Position numbers and translations under genes: made by a program. Below are positions 36,304 through 43,931 of a stretch of DNA of 57,029 nucleotides, one piece after another. Every line of letters begins with the position of its first letter. Position 1 is the stretch's first letter. The notes under the pieces were generated by a model. That model saw only the letters and a program-made list of their open reading frames with translations. It searched no databases and had not been told where the DNA came from. Source of the stretch: a virus; the IMG/VR virus record IMGVR_UViG_3300043425_000238, positions 1 through 57,029 of that record. One strand, given 5' to 3'.

Positions 36304-38120
36304 TACTTTACACTCCCCCAATTTTCTCCACGTTCGTCATCAATAGCTAAAGGGATCTTTAAATCAAAGCCACACATAATCCTGCCTGCATGTTCTAGTG
36401 CCTCAATCCCTTCTTTTGTATTCGGCGCTGTCCACACCAATTCATCATGAACCGTCATCAATGGCATGCCAATGGATCCAGTCACACCTTCTTCAACCAT
36501 TTTAATCATGGCCATCTTGTTAATATCAGCTGCAGAGCCTTGCAGGATCCTGTTCAGTGCCTTATGCGTATACGCTCTGCGGACTCTCCCCCACTTATCG
36601 ATTGCAAGACCTTTATCTTCAATGGCATCTTCTCTAACTCCCCACTGATCTGCTTCCCACATATTAAACCTGGCCCTGCGTCCAAGTATAGTCTTGACAT
36701 ATCCACGGGAGCCTGCCCTCTTGGCTGCCAGATTATACGTCTCACGGACAAATGGCATCTTGTCATGGTAAATACTAAAGATCCCTTCAGCTTCCGCCAC
36801 TGTCATGCCTAACTCAGACGCTAACTTAGCTTTGCCCATCCCGTAGACAAGACCAAAGTTAATGGATTTTGCCGGCTTACGAGCAACGCCAGTGATCTCC
36901 GACACCATGGTATGAAAGTCAGTGGTTGGATCCTCACGATACATAGACCTTGCAAGCTCTGCGCCACGGCCAACACCATAATGGGTCAGCATTCTAAATT
37001 CGATTTGACTCCAGTCTTGTGCCGACATGATCTCCCCTTCGTCAGGTAAGAACAGACTCCTGACCAAAGGCCCAATCTCTTCATCACGCGCTGGAATATT
37101 TTGAAGGTTAGGGTTAGAACTACTAAGTCGACCGCTAACAGTGCCATACTCATCAGAACGTAATTGATTAAATGTTCCATACAATCTCCCATCCACATGC
37201 TTGTCTAATATATAGCCACGAACAAAGGTATCTCTTGCCTTTAGAAGCCTGCGGATCTCATATACAATAGGTAGATTAGCCTTGAGCCATGCCCCTTCAA
37301 AAGAAGGATTGCCTTTACCTGTAGTAGGATACTGGATCCCCTTCTTGTCACAATACGCCTTTAACGCAGCAGCCTTGTTAACGTCTTCAATAGGAAACTC
37401 TTGACCATACACTTCAATTTGCGCTGACCAGTCATCGTCCAACTGCTTAGCTTTCTCAACGTCAACACGAACTCCCCTCAAGCGCATGTCAACCAGCATA
37501 GGACAGAGCTTAGCTTCTACCTCGTACACTCGCCACAAGTCTTGTGCTTCTAACTCAGCCTTTTGCAGCAAGAACAGGTCAGCCAGACGGTCCACGTCAC
37601 CTCTAGCATATTCCTCTACCCAACTTGCCGGTGCTTTCCAGATGTTGCCAGCTTGACGACGACCTTTAGGTCCGCCAAATGCTGCCCGCAGCCGTTCGTA
37701 CATCTCGTCTTGTACCTTGCCACCTAAACCATACTTGCCTAACAATGAATCCAATGAATAAGATCTAGCGTATTCATCCAACAAAGGTTCAGCCAGCTGC
37801 ACATCCCAGATAGGCCCGTTCACTGTCACGCCTTCCCACTTCAGCCAACCTAGATCGTAGTTAGCATTGGCAAAGACCTTTGGCTCATCGCCACTAAACT
37901 GCTCGTTAGCCCATCTCAGTACCTGATCACGGTCCATGTTGCCACCACCTTCATGGCGGATAGGTAGGTAATAACTCTCACCGCCGGCTGCCACGCAAAT
38001 GCCAACAATGTAGCCTTTACCACGACCCCATCCTGGTCCATTGTCTAGTAGTTCAGGATCGCACGTCTCCGTGTCGATAGCAATAGGGCCTTTACCTCTT
38101 AACTCCGGTAATACATTCAT
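36303..38120 (-). CDS. polA: Family A DNA polymerase with 3'-5' exonuclease domain
   Basis: 605 residues, without a 5'-nuclease domain. Exonuclease motifs: AIDTET (D16, E18), FANANYDLGWL, and YARGDVDRLADLF near residue 170. Polymerase motifs: A, AQDWSQIEFRMLTHYG; B, RKPAKSINFGLVYGMG; C, MTVHDELVW. The residue equivalent to E. coli F762 is phenylalanine. It replicates the phage genome with the primase and helicases of the same unit. It overlaps the dCMP deaminase gene upstream by one base and the TrfB-like gene downstream by TAATG. This is one of the most secure assignments here. Confidence 0.97.
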   Translation of the reverse strand: MNVLPELRGKGPIAIDTETCDPELLDNGPGWGRGKGYIVGICVAAGGESYYLPIRHEGGGNMDRDQVLRWANEQFSGDEPKVFANANYDLGWLKWEGVTVNGPIWDVQLAEPLLDEYARSYSLDSLLGKYGLGGKVQDEMYERLRAAFGGPKGRRQAGNIWKAPASWVEEYARGDVDRLADLFLLQKAELEAQDLWRVYEVEAKLCPMLVDMRLRGVRVDVEKAKQLDDDWSAQIEVYGQEFPIEDVNKAAALKAYCDKKGIQYPTTGKGNPSFEGAWLKANLPIVYEIRRLLKARDTFVRGYILDKHVDGRLYGTFNQLRSDEYGTVSGRLSSSNPNLQNIPARDEEIGPLVRSLFLPDEGEIMSAQDWSQIEFRMLTHYGVGRGAELARSMYREDPTTDFHTMVSEITGVARKPAKSINFGLVYGMGKAKLASELGMTVAEAEGIFSIYHDKMPFVRETYNLAAKRAGSRGYVKTILGRRARFNMWEADQWGVREDAIEDKGLAIDKWGRVRRAYTHKALNRILQGSAADINKMAMIKMVEEGVTGSIGMPLMTVHDELVWTAPNTKEGIEALEHAGRIMCGFDLKIPLAIDDERGENWGSVK

Positions 38121-38563
38121 CAGACTTCCAATTCGTTATGGTGCCACTCACGTCCAGCCTTTTCCCATAGTGCCTTGCTAGTTTCACTATGCGGATAGTC
38201 TTGGTTGAACACAATTCGTTGGCAGCCGGTATTTAAGAGCAGCTTCAAGCAATGAATGCATGGCGCTGTCGTACAATAAGCAGTCTTGATCAGCTTCACG
38301 TCAGTCACCTGCAGCAGAGCATTCTGTTCAGCATGGATAGCTTCACACTTATCAAGGCCAAGGCCTGATCGATACTTAGCACCTTCACATGGCTCGTCAA
38401 TGCAATGAGCAAAGCCACTAGGCACGCCGTTGTAGCCAGTTGCCAAGACTTTGTTGTCTTCTGACACTAGCACGCAGCCAACTGTGCGTCTAGGACAAGT
38501 ACCTCTTGAAGAGACTACCTCGGCCATGACGCCAAAGTATTCATCCAGGCTAGGGCGTCGCAT
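38120..38563 (-). CDS. Deoxycytidylate deaminase
   Basis: 147 residues from the ATG at 38563 (MRRPSLDEYFG); an ATG at 38599 is possible but overlaps more. It converts dCMP to dUMP. Zinc and catalytic residues are all present: H77-A-E79 in AIHAEQN and C102xxC105 in PCIHC, with the usual RGTCPRRTVGCVLV near residue 20 and TGYNGVPSG. In the neighbouring cassette it would supply dUMP for hydroxymethylation or methylation. It overlaps the thymidylate-synthase-like gene by 14 bases. Confidence 0.95.
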   Translation of the reverse strand: MRRPSLDEYFGVMAEVVSSRGTCPRRTVGCVLVSEDNKVLATGYNGVPSGFAHCIDEPCEGAKYRSGLGLDKCEAIHAEQNALLQVTDVKLIKTAYCTTAPCIHCLKLLLNTGCQRIVFNQDYPHSETSKALWEKAGREWHHNELEV

Positions 38564-39212
38564 AGTCTTCAACCAATTTAAAGTGTCGTTCGTAAACATG
38601 TAAGCTTGCTACATTCCAATAAATGTCACCTGCAGGGACGCCAATGTTATTTGATACCTGGTCTAGCACATACTTCTGCCAGGCATAGTCATTCTTGTAG
38701 CCAAACACAGCATCATTAGATCTCATGTACACTAGCGCATGAACCTTACCTTTCCTGATCAGGTACTGAACGGTGTTGGTACACATGAAGTCGCTCATGC
38801 CGCCTGTACTATATTCCCATTGCATCGATGGTCTTGTATAGATCATGATGGCTCTGCGAGAGTCATGGTTTCTTTTTAACTCAGTTACGCAATTGATAAA
38901 CTGATCATGGTTTTCTACTGAGTAGATGCACCAGCCATAGTTAGAGTTAATCCAACCTTCAGGCGATGCTACAGCTTTCCAAATAGCAGGGATTGGCTCA
39001 GGGATGTCGTTCACATTAAGTGACTTGGACAAATACCAATCAAGCTCACGCTTAACGTAGTCTTCGTTGACAAACCCAAACAATGCCTCGTCATCAGCCA
39101 AAAAAGAAGCATTCATGATCTCAATGGTTTTCACACCTGACTTGTCAATGACAAACTCACCTTTGCGAAGCTTCTTAACAAGCTTGTTGCAAATGTCTTT
39201 AGTCTTCTTCAT
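38550..39212 (-). CDS. Thymidylate synthase-fold enzyme, probable deoxypyrimidine hydroxymethylase
   Basis: 220 residues, shorter than cellular ThyA. Landmarks: INSNYGWCIY, DSRRAIMIY (phosphate-binding arginines 119-120), catalytic C144 in DFMCTNTVQY, RSND at 164-167 and GYKND at 171-175, then IYWNVASLHVYERHF. C144 to D175 is 31 residues, exactly the spacing from the catalytic Cys to N177 of E. coli ThyA or D179 of T4 dCMP hydroxymethylase. So the base-recognition position here is Asp, as in dCMP-specific members. The proline usually before the catalytic Cys is Met. In this cassette it probably makes 5-hydroxymethyl-dCMP or -dUMP; substrate is open. Confidence 0.85.
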   Translation of the reverse strand: MKKTKDICNKLVKKLRKGEFVIDKSGVKTIEIMNASFLADDEALFGFVNEDYVKRELDWYLSKSLNVNDIPEPIPAIWKAVASPEGWINSNYGWCIYSVENHDQFINCVTELKRNHDSRRAIMIYTRPSMQWEYSTGGMSDFMCTNTVQYLIRKGKVHALVYMRSNDAVFGYKNDYAWQKYVLDQVSNNIGVPAGDIYWNVASLHVYERHFKLVEDYATP

Positions 39213-40068
39213 AATGACCTCGTAATAAATTCACTAACGGATATTGATCCGCATGGCGGAAACGTTTCCAATATTGTGGATGTTCCACGCGAGTGTGTTT
39301 AAGATCTGCAATCTCACACCATCTTGCTGCTTCTTCACCTAACGCAATGATTAGTCTTGGATTAAGCTCATCCACGAAGTCTTTTGATTGGATCCCACCG
39401 TCAAGACGGAAGCCGTTAACCCAGTAAAGCTCTGACTCTGGCACACCTGCATAGTCCAATTGCATGGCAAGCCAAGGACTGCAGCCCTCCCAATGAACGA
39501 ATGGCAAGTCAAGGTTATCGATGAGTGGGTTTGATGCTGTGTCTCCAACAATAAGGATGTTTCCTGGTTTGAAGTTGCCAATGCCTGGTCCTTTGTTTTC
39601 GTAGATCTCAACTGCTGCTAACTTCTCAGCAAGATCGTTTAATGTTTCCTTTGTCCAGTCATAAGTCACATGAGGCGTGTTGTATTTCATGGCAGCGTAA
39701 CCATCATAGATAGCTTTGAACTGTGCCTCGTCAGATACCATCTCTTCACGACCACTAGACCAAGCTTTATGACAAGTCTCGTAGTCAGGTAAGCAGGCAA
39801 TAACAATACGGCCTTCAGACAAGATCATGCGGTCAAGCATACGAGTGCGATGGCCATAACGCTGTGGCGTCTTGTGATAGATCGGTGAATAGACTAACTC
39901 AGAATAGTACATGCGGTCTACTGATTTGGCATCACTAATGACTGACTTAAGCGTTTCAGTAAACATCACACGAGCATCTGGGTAGTAGCTATGGTGCCAA
40001 GAATCACCTAGACTGTCAGCTAGCGTAGTCTTACCAGCTCCATCAGGGCCTTCTAAAATATATCTCAT
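39199..40068 (-). CDS. P-loop nucleotide/DNA kinase fused to a UDG-like domain
   Basis: 289 residues. Residues 1-150 are a dNMP/thymidylate-kinase-type P-loop domain: Walker A EGPDGAGKTT (6-15), then RMLDRMILSEGRIVIACLPD. Residues 168-289 look like a uracil-DNA-glycosylase superfamily domain: NILIVGDTASNP, LPFVHWEGCSPWLAMQLDYA, YWVNGF, PRLIIALGEEA and VEHPQYW at 261-267. It starts in an ATGA overlap with the 54-residue gene. The kinase could phosphorylate a hydroxymethyl nucleotide, or hydroxymethyluracil within DNA; the UDG-like part may recognise the base in DNA or protect or edit it. The fusion is inferred by eye and needs a profile search. Confidence 0.65.
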   Translation of the reverse strand: MRYILEGPDGAGKTTLADSLGDSWHHSYYPDARVMFTETLKSVISDAKSVDRMYYSELVYSPIYHKTPQRYGHRTRMLDRMILSEGRIVIACLPDYETCHKAWSSGREEMVSDEAQFKAIYDGYAAMKYNTPHVTYDWTKETLNDLAEKLAAVEIYENKGPGIGNFKPGNILIVGDTASNPLIDNLDLPFVHWEGCSPWLAMQLDYAGVPESELYWVNGFRLDGGIQSKDFVDELNPRLIIALGEEAARWCEIADLKHTRVEHPQYWKRFRHADQYPLVNLLRGHYEED

Positions 40069-40229
40069 CGAGGTAGCTCCAAGTGTTTAGTATCAACTTC
40101 CACGATCTTATCATCTGGCAGCTGCACCATGGCTGTGTCAGGATAATGACCTGTCTTTAAAACTTTAACTACACATTCAAACTCTCTATGCCATAACCAC
40201 TGTGGCAATGTTTTATTATTTGGCTGCAT
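40065..40229 (-). CDS. Small protein in the modification cassette
   Basis: 54 residues: MQPNNKTLPQWLWHREFECV, then VKVLKTGHYPDTAMVQLPDD and KIVEVDTKHLELPR. It overlaps the MazG-like gene upstream and the kinase gene downstream (ATGA). A short beta-barrel-like pattern (W.H.....V..L..G.YPDTA.V.LPDD..VEV) suggests a small SH3-like fold, possibly a partner of one of the enzymes. Function unknown. Confidence 0.65.
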   Translation of the reverse strand: MQPNNKTLPQWLWHREFECVVKVLKTGHYPDTAMVQLPDDKIVEVDTKHLELPR

Positions 40230-40629
40230 TCAGCACCCCTTCAATGTCAGGTCCTTGCCAGCCTCTCGGCTTAATTACATCTAGCGAGGATCCACGTTTA
40301 GATTCGTCAGCGCTACTTGCTCTGACCTTGCTCATGTTTGCTCGTTGAACCTCAGCCCACAATTGCTGCCATGGCAAGCCCATCATGTAAGCTGTGCCCA
40401 TAGCTACGTAGACTAGATCAATCAAAGCGTCTGCCATGCCTGGTAAATCATCAGAAATAGCACTCACACGGAATTCCATGAGCTCTTCTTCCAAGAATTT
40501 AAGACGGAATTTAACTGTCTCTTGGTCCAAGAGTCTAGGTTTGCCGTCATAAGTTAGGCCAAACTTTTCATGGAAGGCTGCCACATCTTCATAGTTGGAC
40601 AATGGTCCAAAGGTATCGTCTATGCTCAT
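40216..40629 (-). CDS. MazG-like nucleotide pyrophosphohydrolase
   Basis: 137 residues. The helical all-alpha NTP-PPase pattern is present: RLKFLEEELMEFRVS (EExxE) and MADALIDLVYVAMGTAYMMG (DxxxD), with a C-terminal RANMSKVRA segment typical of phage MazG-like proteins. Such enzymes hydrolyse (d)NTPs to (d)NMP. In this cassette it could clear an unmodified dNTP from the pool so that the modified one is used. Substrate not predictable. Overlaps its neighbours by 4 and 14 bases. Confidence 0.8.
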   Translation of the reverse strand: MSIDDTFGPLSNYEDVAAFHEKFGLTYDGKPRLLDQETVKFRLKFLEEELMEFRVSAISDDLPGMADALIDLVYVAMGTAYMMGLPWQQLWAEVQRANMSKVRASSADESKRGSSLDVIKPRGWQGPDIEGVLNAAK

Positions 40630-40883
40630 GATATTCTTTTCACCTTAACTTTGTTTTTTGCACGAATGATCGTGGTGTTTGCTGAACCACGTCCCCAATT
40701 TTTAACTGCGTAGCTAGAGATGCTGCTTCTAAGCACCTCAATGTCAAACTCACCTTGCGGAATAAACGCAGTGTTGCCTACCTGAAGTGTACTGATTTTC
40801 TTACGGTAATGGTTAGTGATAGCTCCATGCTTTTTACGTTCTTGAGCTTTTGACTTAAATAATGCTAATAGTTTTTCAAACAT
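40626..40883 (-). CDS. Small basic protein, first gene after the PLP enzyme
   Basis: 85 residues. Helical basic start (LLALFKSKAQERKKHGAITN), then ISTLQVGNTAFIPQGEFDIE, VLRSSISSYAVKNWGRGS and TTIIRAKNKVKVKRIS. The VG.T..IP ... R..I..YA...GR ... T.....VKV.RI pattern is familiar from small phage proteins thought to bind DNA. AAGGA lies upstream of the ATG. The shared CTGTTTACAA element lies only 32 bases upstream, but a good -10 box is not visible there. Confidence 0.6.
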   Translation of the reverse strand: MFEKLLALFKSKAQERKKHGAITNHYRKKISTLQVGNTAFIPQGEFDIEVLRSSISSYAVKNWGRGSANTTIIRAKNKVKVKRIS

Positions 40884-40914
40884 TTCTATTCCTTTCTAGT
40901 GTTGGAATGGTTAT

Positions 40915-40920
40915 TGTAAA
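40915..40920 (-). promoter_or_regulatory. TTTACA element (shared motif), role unclear
   Basis: The 42-base gap after the PLP-enzyme gene contains CTTAAAACTGTTTACAATAA on the minus strand, the same element found at the promoters at 43999, 36075 and 32092. The best -10 here is only TAGAAA (16-base spacer), and transcription would start at the ribosome binding site, so it may instead be an operator or vestigial promoter. Confidence 0.4.
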
Positions 40921-40925
40921 CAGTT

Positions 40926-41837
40926 TTAAGGTTTAAGTAAATCTGACCTGTCACCCCACTCGCGGTATGAGTTGATGGTTGCAGCATCCATTGACACGTG
41001 GTGATCTTTACCAGTGTTCCAGAAGAAGGCACCATCACTAGCATGCTCTCTCATAAAGCGCAGGACTTTAAGATCGTAGGTCTTGACTGATGGGAATGGT
41101 GCAGTCTCAAGATCTTCACCACGGCCAAACTCGTAAGGATGGCTGTAGATCTTAGCTCTTCCTGCTTCGCCTGCTTTAATGTTACGGGCAACAGCTACAC
41201 AATGGAAGTCAGTATCTGGCCAGCCTACTTGCATGGATCTGCTCATGACGCCTGTTGAGATGGCTGTCCACATTTCCTTAGGTTGACCATGCTTCTTCAT
41301 GTAGTTATCACAGGCTCTGGTCATGACTGCAGTGACTAGCGGATGCTTCAAACCAAATGGGAAGAAGGTTGCATTGTTACGGTCAGCCCAAGCTTTTGCT
41401 TCTCTATTGAGATTAGGCATGGCAGCCGAACGAACCCAGCGTAGTTCACCGCCTAACTCCATGGCGTGCATTTGATGGGTTGATGCTTCTTGTCGGGCTG
41501 GTGCAAATAGCACCAAGCGTTTGTTGTACTTCTTAGCCAAGATTGCCAACGCTGCAGGCGCATGGCCTTGTCTAGGTGCTACATAGGTAATGGTATCAGT
41601 CTTGATGGTTGACATCAACAACTCACCAAGACGACCTTTTGTGCCACCTAGTGGGTTCAGATCTTCACGAACCACATGGAAGGTTCTACCCTTTTCATCG
41701 TTAGTCAACTGAAATGGCTCAACAACAAAGTCACCGCAAGGGTCGACCCAGTCTTTTGTCATTTCCAAATACTCTTCTCTGCTATGCAGCGTTAAGTCAT
41801 AGTTTATCCCGTCAAGGATATGGTTGTTATGCGCCAT
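40926..41837 (-). CDS. PLP-dependent enzyme (tryptophan synthase beta / cysteine synthase fold)
   Basis: 303 residues. The motif VREDLNPLGGTKGRLGELLM places the Schiff-base lysine at K67 with the classic N(P)xGGxKxR context of fold-type II PLP enzymes. The chain continues with ITYVAPRQGHAPAALAILAK (cofactor-binding loop) and RLVLFAPARQEASTHQM, as in cysteine-synthase-like proteins. It is embedded in the modification cassette, overlapping the upstream gene by 11 bases with AGGAG inside that gene. PLP enzymes act in thymidine hypermodification of phages such as ViI, removing a carboxyl group or rearranging an amino acid attached to the base. The same kind of step is inferred here. Confidence 0.75.
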   Translation of the reverse strand: MAHNNHILDGINYDLTLHSREEYLEMTKDWVDPCGDFVVEPFQLTNDEKGRTFHVVREDLNPLGGTKGRLGELLMSTIKTDTITYVAPRQGHAPAALAILAKKYNKRLVLFAPARQEASTHQMHAMELGGELRWVRSAAMPNLNREAKAWADRNNATFFPFGLKHPLVTAVMTRACDNYMKKHGQPKEMWTAISTGVMSRSMQVGWPDTDFHCVAVARNIKAGEAGRAKIYSHPYEFGRGEDLETAPFPSVKTYDLKVLRFMREHASDGAFFWNTGKDHHVSMDAATINSYREWGDRSDLLKP

Positions 41838-42960
41838 CTTTTACTCTCCTTTGATATTCGTCTACTGACATGTTAGCTCTGGACAAGACATAGTCATCAG
41901 AAGGGTGCACATTGATGTCGTTGAAACTACCAACAAGGCCCAATTCCAAATGCTTCCGCTGCCTTCCATAAGGGTGATGACCGACACGGTGACTGCTAAA
42001 TACACGATCCCGATCAAGATGCTCATAATCATGCCCTGGCCGGACATAAGATTCAATCCAGCGAATATAATCACAAGCAATATCTTCTGCATCATAGGGG
42101 ACTGATCCAGTGTCTTCATAAATTCTCTCCATAATGTTGTCTAGAAATTGTATTGGCTTCATCTTCTTTGGCTTGTCAAACAAGTAGCTCAAGCATTCCA
42201 CGGCGTTTGTGCCATAAAAGAAGTGGCTATCCCTTTTGACCAGCTCAGGGAAAAAGTCAGCAATGTCAGCAACTACCGCTGCATACTGGAATTTGTAGGC
42301 CCGTAGATCACGTGACCTGTTCCACTCAAACATCCATTCGCCAATCTCTCTCAAACCTTTAGGCTCCCCTGACGTTAACCAATCAGCTAAGCTACGGGCC
42401 AAGACAGGAGCGTACACGGCCAAGAAGAAGTCACCGCCTCGTTTGAAGCCACGACCTGGTCTAGGGAACGCGGGGAATTGGTAACCAACAGAAGTGTAGA
42501 ACGTAGACTGAGACCACTGGATCTTCTCAGCCATTTCCTCAATACTAAGCCCAATGATCTCTGGCAGCAGAGTGTTGTGGTAGCCTGAATGCTTCTTGCC
42601 ATAGTTAATTCCTGAGCCTGTCAGTCTGTGGAGCATAAATACATACAACCACTCAGGCAAGGACCAAACACCATGAACACCCGTAGCTTCTTCCGCAATT
42701 GGCAAACGAATGCCATGCATCTTATGATCGTATGGATGCTCCTCGGCTTTCCCATACCACAAGTCAAGCAAGATCTGTGTAAACCCGGCGTACTTACGGT
42801 TGACAACGTCGTAGAGGTGGACGTTCTTCATAAGGTCGTCGTCAAAAGGCGAGTCCTCGTGACGTGTCGTCCCTAGATTGCAATGTTCCTGCTGCCACGT
42901 CGCCATCTGATGGTAGCGTAGGAATTCAGGATAGTATTCGGTCATGACAAGATTTGTCAT
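41827..42960 (-). CDS. aGPT-PPlase / 5-hmdU DNA kinase helical-type base-modification protein
   Basis: 377 residues, mostly helical. Residues 8-70 (EYYPEFLRYHQMATWQQEHC, then DSPFDDDLMKNVHLYDVVNR and KYAGFTQILLDLWYG) match the conserved core of the helical families called alpha-glutamyl/putrescinyl thymine pyrophosphorylase and 5-hmdU DNA kinase helical domain: a conserved aromatic-R segment, D-D-L, N-x-x-x-Y-D-V-x-R, then GFTQ. Later come GYHNTLLPEIIGLSIEEMAE, AFPRPGRGFKRGGDFFLAVY and HFFYGTNAVECLSYLFDKPK. These enzymes attach phosphate or an amino acid/amine to hydroxymethyl pyrimidines in DNA. Which of these it does here cannot be told. ATGA overlap with the SGNH-like gene. Confidence 0.65.
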   Translation of the reverse strand: MTNLVMTEYYPEFLRYHQMATWQQEHCNLGTTRHEDSPFDDDLMKNVHLYDVVNRKYAGFTQILLDLWYGKAEEHPYDHKMHGIRLPIAEEATGVHGVWSLPEWLYVFMLHRLTGSGINYGKKHSGYHNTLLPEIIGLSIEEMAEKIQWSQSTFYTSVGYQFPAFPRPGRGFKRGGDFFLAVYAPVLARSLADWLTSGEPKGLREIGEWMFEWNRSRDLRAYKFQYAAVVADIADFFPELVKRDSHFFYGTNAVECLSYLFDKPKKMKPIQFLDNIMERIYEDTGSVPYDAEDIACDYIRWIESYVRPGHDYEHLDRDRVFSSHRVGHHPYGRQRKHLELGLVGSFNDINVHPSDDYVLSRANMSVDEYQRRVKDGA

Positions 42961-43931
42961 TCTGCTTCCCCTCTTAATAATCTATTCATACGGCCATGTG
43001 CCCATGAAACATGAACTGAACCTGGTTTTTCCATGTACTCTTCATCCATCTCGCCTTTGCTATTCTTAAAGTAGAACGGATAGCGCAGGTAGGTCCAACC
43101 ATTGTTAATACACATCTCGCTAAACAACTCGTCCATCTTACGACGTAAGAAGTCACGCTCCTCCCAAGATCCTGCAAACGGCGTGCCTTTGTAGTAGCCA
43201 GTCTTCGGGAGCTTACGACTCTCGTTCTCAATGTAGATCGGCTGCACAACTTGAATGCCACAGCCGGAGTCCCGCTGAATATCAATGAGCTGCTGCTGAA
43301 GTCGCACGACTAAGTCAACTAGCGCAGGAATTGGATGAGCTTGTCTATGTAAATGATGACGGATGTCGATATTACCGAAGCAAACCGCTAATTCGTCAGG
43401 AATGTACTCCAAAAAGCTAGAAATACCGCTTTCAAGTGCCCCAAAAAGAGTTTTCCCATCATGGCGTATGACTGACGCGCCTGGCACATACCAGTTCAAA
43501 CTATGACTGTCTCCTAATATAATATAACTCGAGGCTTTTTGTGTGTGGACAGGTGCGCTTGTGGCGCGAGCATTTAGAGTATCTTTTGGAAAATTTGGCC
43601 ATCTCCTAGCAATGAGGTCGCCAAAGCCGACTGGACGCTCATCTAACCACTCAAGTTTGTCACCGAAGCCGATCATGCGGTCAAACTTCTCACGATTCTC
43701 GTCAGAGGCGCCACCGAACAAGTTAAGAGTGCCTGACCATTCCATGCCGAGGTAGCAATAGATCTTGTCGTACTGCTCCCAATTAGTTTTAGATTCGTCT
43801 TTTGTGTAGATGACGTCGACGTCGTTGCCTTCACGACTAATTTGATCTGCGCGCATTAAAGCCCATGCAGTGCGGTGAGATCCTTCTTTAGGTGTTAAAG
43901 TCCCGTTCGGACTGTAGATTGCTATTTTCAT
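42957..43931 (-). CDS. SGNH/GDSL-hydrolase-like protein, first gene of the modification cassette
   Basis: 324 residues. N-terminal 130 residues form an alpha/beta region of unclear family (KIAIYSPNGTLTPKEGSHRT, then DVDVIYTKDESKTN). From residue 137 an SGNH-type core is visible: GDSHSLNW (S142), a glycine-containing second block near 164-170, FGNIDIRHH with N187, and a C-terminal histidine in GSVHVSWAH (H307 or H312). The Asp that normally precedes the His is not obvious. SGNH enzymes are esterases or acyltransferases. Its promoter and coupled translation with the helical enzyme suggest it acts in the same pathway, perhaps adding or removing an acyl group. This is inference. Confidence 0.55.
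   Translation of the reverse strand: MKIAIYSPNGTLTPKEGSHRTAWALMRADQISREGNDVDVIYTKDESKTNWEQYDKIYCYLGMEWSGTLNLFGGASDENREKFDRMIGFGDKLEWLDERPVGFGDLIARRWPNFPKDTLNARATSAPVHTQKASSYIILGDSHSLNWYVPGASVIRHDGKTLFGALESGISSFLEYIPDELAVCFGNIDIRHHLHRQAHPIPALVDLVVRLQQQLIDIQRDSGCGIQVVQPIYIENESRKLPKTGYYKGTPFAGSWEERDFLRRKMDELFSEMCINNGWTYLRYPFYFKNSKGEMDEEYMEKPGSVHVSWAHGRMNRLLRGEAE

Follow-up and report, generated by a model that had tools for sequence, protein, structure and literature searches.

We analyzed a stretch of viral DNA of 57,029 bases, IMG/VR virus record IMGVR_UViG_3300043425_000238 (the window, taken at its full length), for a compact group of genes predicted to modify DNA. The genes for DNA and nucleotide metabolism in the window lie on the minus strand, and the cassette is flanked by a PolA-type DNA polymerase gene on one side and by SF1 helicase and primase genes on the other. 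A preliminary description, made from the letters alone, had named seven parts of the cassette between positions 38120 and 43931, and all seven are present there on the minus strand. An eighth open reading frame (ORF), which that list did not include, lies among them. Specifically, the features are as follows (PLP, pyridoxal phosphate; UDG, uracil-DNA glycosylase; beta-GT, beta-glucosyltransferase; aa, amino acids):

38120..38599, minus strand: dCMP deaminase (PF00383, E 7e-20; phrog_174)
38550..39212, minus strand: T4 gp42-type dCMP hydroxymethylase (PF00303; PDB 1b49, E 3e-82)
39199..40068, minus strand: P-loop dNMP-kinase-like protein with a UDG-like domain, 289 aa (phrog_761 thymidylate kinase, E 5e-16)
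39202..39576, minus strand: UDG-like domain of that protein (IIALG...HPQYWKRF), residues 165-289 (hhalign to a stand-alone UDG-like family)
40216..40629, minus strand: MazG/PRA-PH-type nucleotide pyrophosphohydrolase (PF01503, E 7e-15)
40626..40883, minus strand: 85-aa ORF, function not assigned (no Pfam or PHROG family)
40926..41837, minus strand: fold-type II PLP enzyme, 303 aa (PALP, E 9e-8; phrog_7093, E 3e-39)
41827..42960, minus strand: HEL, a helical protein of 377 aa with an amino-acid:DNA-transferase-like predicted fold, from a virus-only family (AlphaFold, VIA, BFVD)
42957..43931, minus strand: two-domain SGNH protein, 324 aa (AlphaFold pLDDT 91.8; Foldseek/VIA)
43551..43931, minus strand: beta-GT N-domain-like part of the SGNH protein, residues 1-127 (S18, G62, G67, N70, G73 and G74 invariant)
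42960..43550, minus strand: SGNH hydrolase/transferase domain, residues 128-324 (S142 in GDSH, G164, N187, E301, H307)

The base on which this cassette acts is most likely 5-hydroxymethylcytosine (hmC) rather than hydroxymethyluracil, because the hydroxymethylase is of the gp42 type and carries Asp at the position that determines specificity. The enzyme shares 60% identity with T4 gp42 over 208 aa (E 9e-94), and its Asp175 occupies the position of Asn177 in E. coli ThyA, which sets dCMP specificity. Asp is found at this position in all cassette hydroxymethylases compared (51/51, window included). By contrast, the enzyme of phage M6, which hypermodifies thymidine, has Asn there, as do thymidylate synthases. 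Thus, the thymidylate-synthase fold previously proposed for this protein stands, and its sequence can be read more exactly as that of a T4-type enzyme that most likely makes hydroxymethyl-dCMP (hm-dCMP). In an experimental metagenome study, contigs with modified cytosine mostly encoded Asp177, and unmodified contigs mostly Asn (PMC8670742).

The DNA modification cassette is real and widespread. At least 582 stretches in IMG/VR (600 candidates) encode HEL. Among GTDB genomes, HEL occurs in six contigs of metagenome-assembled genomes only, and no relative exists among 50,697 phage isolate records; a DNA-level search of phage isolates with the window likewise gave no match. For linkage, the best-scoring 80 of the HEL stretches listed, together with ten more, were sampled, and the proportions therefore apply only to close relatives: 69 of the 90 loci carry the PLP gene and 68 the SGNH gene. 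PLP, SGNH and hydroxymethylase genes are all present in 17 of 20 nonredundant loci having at least 5.5 kb on each side. A hydroxymethylase was sought and not found in the HEL loci that lack one nearby; those records are fragments. The same gene set, seen in dozens of uncultured phages, comes in the orders hydroxymethylase-HEL-PLP-SGNH, hydroxymethylase-SGNH-PLP-HEL, SGNH-HEL-PLP-hydroxymethylase and others. Recurrence in unrelated contigs, and in several orders, means that the grouping is not due to chance. Several T4-like contigs have the order hydroxymethylase-dCMP deaminase-HEL-PLP-SGNH-UvsX, which places HEL, PLP and SGNH in the slot held by beta-gt in T4, between 42 and uvsX.

A tie to hmC-acting enzymes that is independent of the hydroxymethylase comes from the N-terminal domain of the SGNH protein. 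PF09198, the T4 beta-glucosyltransferase family, is matched by 15 of 45 members (best E 5e-4), and residues 1-127 align with the T4 enzyme by hhalign (82%, E 1e-5, score 46.1). Controls stayed lower: none of 100 shuffled versions exceeded 29.8, and none of 11 other T4 sequences, which include one short fragment, exceeded 21.6. The C-terminal nucleotide-sugar-binding GT-B domain of the T4 enzyme is not found in the protein; its residues 128-324 form the SGNH domain. That fold, which the preliminary description had suggested, is confirmed by the confident predicted model; the beta-GT-like domain adds to that description. The SGNH domain superimposes on 2hsj (VIA Z 15.0, root-mean-square deviation (rmsd) 4.0, 178 residues aligned) and also lies near sialate O-acetylesterases (Z 14), the O-acetyltransferase PatB (8tlb, Z 13.3) and PAF acetylhydrolase. 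PDB sequence searches with the SGNH profile returned nothing useful. Ser142, Gly164, Glu301 and His307 are invariant in 45 SGNH sequences, and Asn187 is replaced by Ser in ten of them. The Asp that usually precedes the His is absent.

The SGNH protein also exists in cultured phages. These are T4-like: Aeromonas phages account for 38 records and IME13 for two. In three Tenacibaculum records the match is confined to the C-terminal part. Phages 44RR, 25, IME13 and AS4 encode gp42-type hydroxymethylases (57-60% identity) and have no match to PF09198, which T4 matches as a control. Phages 44RR, 31 and 25 have gene 42 but no known glucosyltransferases (PMC2993671). In 44RR, ORF233c (L006:8001-10388) encodes a 795-aa protein in which the beta-GT-like/SGNH part is joined to a domain weakly resembling HMUDK_hel; taken alone, that domain matches PF18723 with E 0.0009. 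ORF233c is a candidate hmC-modifying enzyme. A sodium/glucose symporter gene adjoins the SGNH gene in 44RR. In phages 25 (L180:2761-6032) and IME13 (L181:270-4047), genes for a UDP-galactopyranose mutase and a 358-aa protein come just before a stand-alone SGNH gene.

The PLP enzyme links the cassette to a known hypermodification pathway. Its assignment as PLP-dependent holds, Lys67 is kept in 70 of 70 sequences, and it is related to gp052 of phage M6 (hhalign 97.4%, E 1e-11), whose gene is adjoined by an ADDT gene, a radical SAM gene and an HMUDK_hel gene. Members of the PLP family also occur in other settings. In Erythrobacter phage R6L (L001:10774-13205), the family forms a fusion with an N6/N4-type DNA methyltransferase, with a PAPS reductase gene nearby, and a similarly annotated fusion exists in Erythrobacter phage ZS04 (L002:2326-4764). 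In Microcystis phage Mae-JY30 (L003:8354-10672), the PLP family gene adjoins ParB/sulfiredoxin genes. These three loci possibly represent another DNA modification system.

Neither Pfam nor PHROG recognizes the HEL protein of the window, and its kinship is suggested by predicted structure. The AlphaFold model is all-helical (pLDDT 76, pTM 0.79). Its best VIA match is PUGT (8z2n; Z 10.8, rmsd 3.5, 204 residues aligned), the glycine:DNA transferase (5-phosphomethyl-dU glycinyltransferase) of phage PaMx11. The next matches are AGOG-type DNA glycosylases, with Z of 8.4 and below. Among viral models in BFVD, counted at E < 2 and probability > 0.5, every named match is an amino acid:DNA transferase, an aGPT-PPlase or an HMUDK_hel protein (E 1e-28 to 2e-3). 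The model thus suggests that HEL belongs with the ADDT/aGPT-PPlase-type proteins, at the level of fold only, since no sequence method sees the link. HEL has companions elsewhere. A second conserved, uncharacterized family, HEL2, adjoins HEL in 40 of the 90 loci (e.g., L091:3190-4194) and is absent from the window; comparison of HEL with HEL2 gives a weak signal in one region (0/60 shuffles). Loci L088-L096 and L047-L050 display an arrangement of an HhH-GPD glycosylase gene with HEL, c25, HEL2 and a GIY gene.

In the thymidine pathways, a DNA kinase acts on the hydroxymethylated base, and no such enzyme is apparent here. The 5-hmdU (hydroxymethyldeoxyuridine) DNA kinase family PF18748 finds no match in the window, nor in 11 records that bear HEL, some of them fragments; M6, the positive control, matches with E 1e-19. 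The M6 protein gp054 (L098:21686-22249), annotated as a terminase small subunit, matches PF18748 with E 8e-18. Either something else activates hmC, or HEL works without activation. Together with the Asp of the hydroxymethylase, this result speaks against the route through thymidine and hydroxymethyluracil that the preliminary description implied.

The kinase-UDG fusion is unlikely to serve as the pathway's DNA kinase, a role for which it was considered, because it is of the thymidylate-kinase/dNMP-kinase type and occurs in only 2 of 91 HEL cassettes, one in the window and one in L012, a near relative. The fusion is peripheral. Its kinase part is as previously described. By hhalign, the tail aligns with the stand-alone UDG-like family (88%, E 3e-6; controls at most 0.2%). 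That family lies near HEL in 20 loci, and one of its members matches PF03167 below the cutoff (E 0.0023; 18.5 bits against 24.3). The window protein itself has no PF03167 match in the Pfam search, canonical UDG motifs are not evident on reading the sequence of the tail, and PDB sequence searches with the two parts returned nothing useful. The UDG-like label is supported by profile comparison and not by direct match. Full-length relatives exist in phages AXL3, PW916 and ctUtU524. Those of AXL3 and ctUtU524 accompany hydroxymethylase-like enzymes that also have Asp, which fits a role as an hm-dCMP kinase.

Taken together, we consider it probable that the cassette converts hmC in virion DNA to a hypermodified cytosine, through HEL, the PLP enzyme and the SGNH protein. 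Most likely, it is a cytosine version of the known amino-acid-type hypermodification pathway. dCMP would be converted to hm-dCMP, phosphorylated further, a step that the kinase-UDG fusion may perform in the window phage, and built into DNA as hmC, with the MazG-like enzyme and the kinase able to shape the nucleotide pool. The SGNH protein would bind hmC via its beta-GT-like domain and act on the hydroxyl. HEL would flip the base out and attach an amino acid at the 5-methylene carbon, in the way that PUGT acts on phosphomethyl-dU. Trimming of the attached amino acid by the PLP enzyme would follow. The notion is that O-acylation by the SGNH protein would supply the leaving group, replacing the DNA kinase step. 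We favor this role over de-esterification of a later intermediate, given that the PF18748 kinase was not found and that 44RR fuses SGNH and HMUDK_hel-like parts. O-acylation is the weakest step of the proposal. The full scheme, a new branch of cytosine chemistry in which the SGNH protein O-acylates hmC, an ADDT-fold enzyme puts an amino acid in place of the acyl group and the PLP enzyme trims it, is accordingly put forward as tentative and, in all its particulars, rather doubtful.

Several observations weigh against an amino-acid pathway on cytosine. No HEL member (0/26) matches PF18724 or PF18723 (ADDT/aGPT-PPlase and HMUDK_hel) in Pfam, so the aGPT-PPlase/5-hmdU-DNA-kinase-type assignment made earlier agrees with the fold and not with the Pfam profiles. 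HEL profiles compared with M6 ADDT, M6 HMUDK_hel and the 44RR protein, using shallow and deep alignments and restricted regions against shuffles, likewise gave no signal. As a control, ADDT against HMUDK_hel itself yields a probability of 1.9% only, and the profile method is therefore too weak to exclude kinship of HEL. For a model made of helices, a Z near 11 is no more than suggestive. As a rule, SGNH enzymes are hydrolases, and the UDP-galactopyranose mutase genes of phages 25 and IME13 point to sugars rather than amino acids. Finally, the HhH-GPD-HEL-c25-HEL2 loci have no hydroxymethylase, PLP or SGNH gene nearby; HEL, or this arrangement, may thus also act on another base.

Three other accounts can be given of the cassette. 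Sugar-based hypermodification of cytosine, in which the SGNH protein acylates or deacylates a sugar on hmC or has become a transferase, and HEL is a base-flipping accessory, would suit the beta-GT-like domain, the mutase genes near SGNH in phages 25 and IME13, the symporter gene next to it in 44RR, the sialate O-acetylesterases and PatB among the nearest solved structures, and a GT-like gene (a weak Pfam match) near many cassettes. It is nevertheless unlikely: the window cassette contains no glycosyltransferase or sugar-nucleotide gene, and the PLP enzyme and the ADDT-like fold of HEL would go unexplained. These last two features are the strength of the M6/ViI kind of thymidine hypermodification, in which phosphorylation of 5-hmdU in DNA is followed by addition of an amino acid and its trimming by the PLP enzyme, given the kinship of the latter to M6 gp052. 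However, the dCMP-type hydroxymethylase with its Asp, the failure to find a PF18748 kinase in the window and 11 relatives and the lack of PF18724/PF18723 matches in HEL render that route highly improbable. Least probable of all is that hmC is the sole modification, with HEL, PLP and SGNH being active in host takeover or in the metabolism of lysis. No tool result favors this idea, and it conflicts with the tight yet reshuffled linkage to the hydroxymethylase, with the position of the cassette in the T4 modification slot and with the beta-GT-like DNA-modification domain of the SGNH protein.

The preferred reading, hypermodified cytosine made with an amino acid, shares parts with several known systems and coincides with none of them. 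T4 (gp42, gp56, gp1, beta-gt) resembles the cassette in its hydroxymethylase, the beta-GT-like domain and the slot used by several T4-like relatives, but the cassette has no glucosyltransferase catalytic domain and possesses SGNH, PLP and ADDT-like proteins. M6, PaMx11 and ViI use an HMUDK kinase, ADDT/PUGT and PLP enzymes, with a radical SAM enzyme in M6. The cassette shares the gp052 PLP family and a helical protein best matching PUGT; it differs in its dCMP-type hydroxymethylase, its SGNH protein, the HMUDK kinase that was not found and a HEL that the ADDT and HMUDK_hel models do not recognize. The 5-hmC carbamoyltransferase system (5cmdC) likewise combines an Asp177-type hydroxymethylase, a MazG-like PRA-PH enzyme and dCMP deaminase and modifies hmC through oxygen, but with a carbamoyltransferase in place of SGNH, HEL and PLP (PMC8670742). 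Aeromonas phages 44RR, 31 and 25 encode gp42 and the same beta-GT-like/SGNH protein (fused to the HMUDK_hel-like domain in 44RR), and differ in having no PLP or HEL homolog by tblastn. CmoX/CmoY also place an amino acid on a cytosine C5 substituent, in 5-carboxymethylcytosine-glycine, by unrelated enzymes, a Cx-SAM methyltransferase and an AMP-forming ligase (PMC12783734). The earlier view of a hypermodification cassette with an unfamiliar combination of parts is thereby upheld, apart from its implied ViI/M6/SP10-type thymidine route. The combination is not one recognized from these known systems, although the literature may hold an earlier mention.

The remaining parts are ancillary. The dCMP deaminase and the MazG-like enzyme are as originally named; the latter is possibly a dCTPase-like pool cleaner, and in many related loci its gene lies upstream of the one for the hydroxymethylase. 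The 85-aa ORF is probably outside the pathway, and in L012, the nearest relative of the window, the gap between the PLP and MazG genes is too small for it. Adjoining the cassette, window:45539-47059 encodes a TOTE-type archaeo-eukaryotic primase (PF22548).

The amino-acid type of hypermodification has been elucidated for thymine. On the cytosine side, hmC in T4-like phages is known to receive sugars, and one enzyme from a sewage phage contig adds a carbamoyl group to it. If true, a pathway that uses ADDT-fold, PLP and SGNH parts on cytosine would join both chemistries and predict a new base. This new branch would be widespread in uncultured phages, with its SGNH component present in cultured Aeromonas phages. 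ORF233c of 44RR and its relatives provide a concrete gene for the question of how hmC might be further modified in gp42-bearing phages without glucosyltransferases (PMC2993671). Because 44RR, 31 and 25 are in culture, that question can be put to a direct test.

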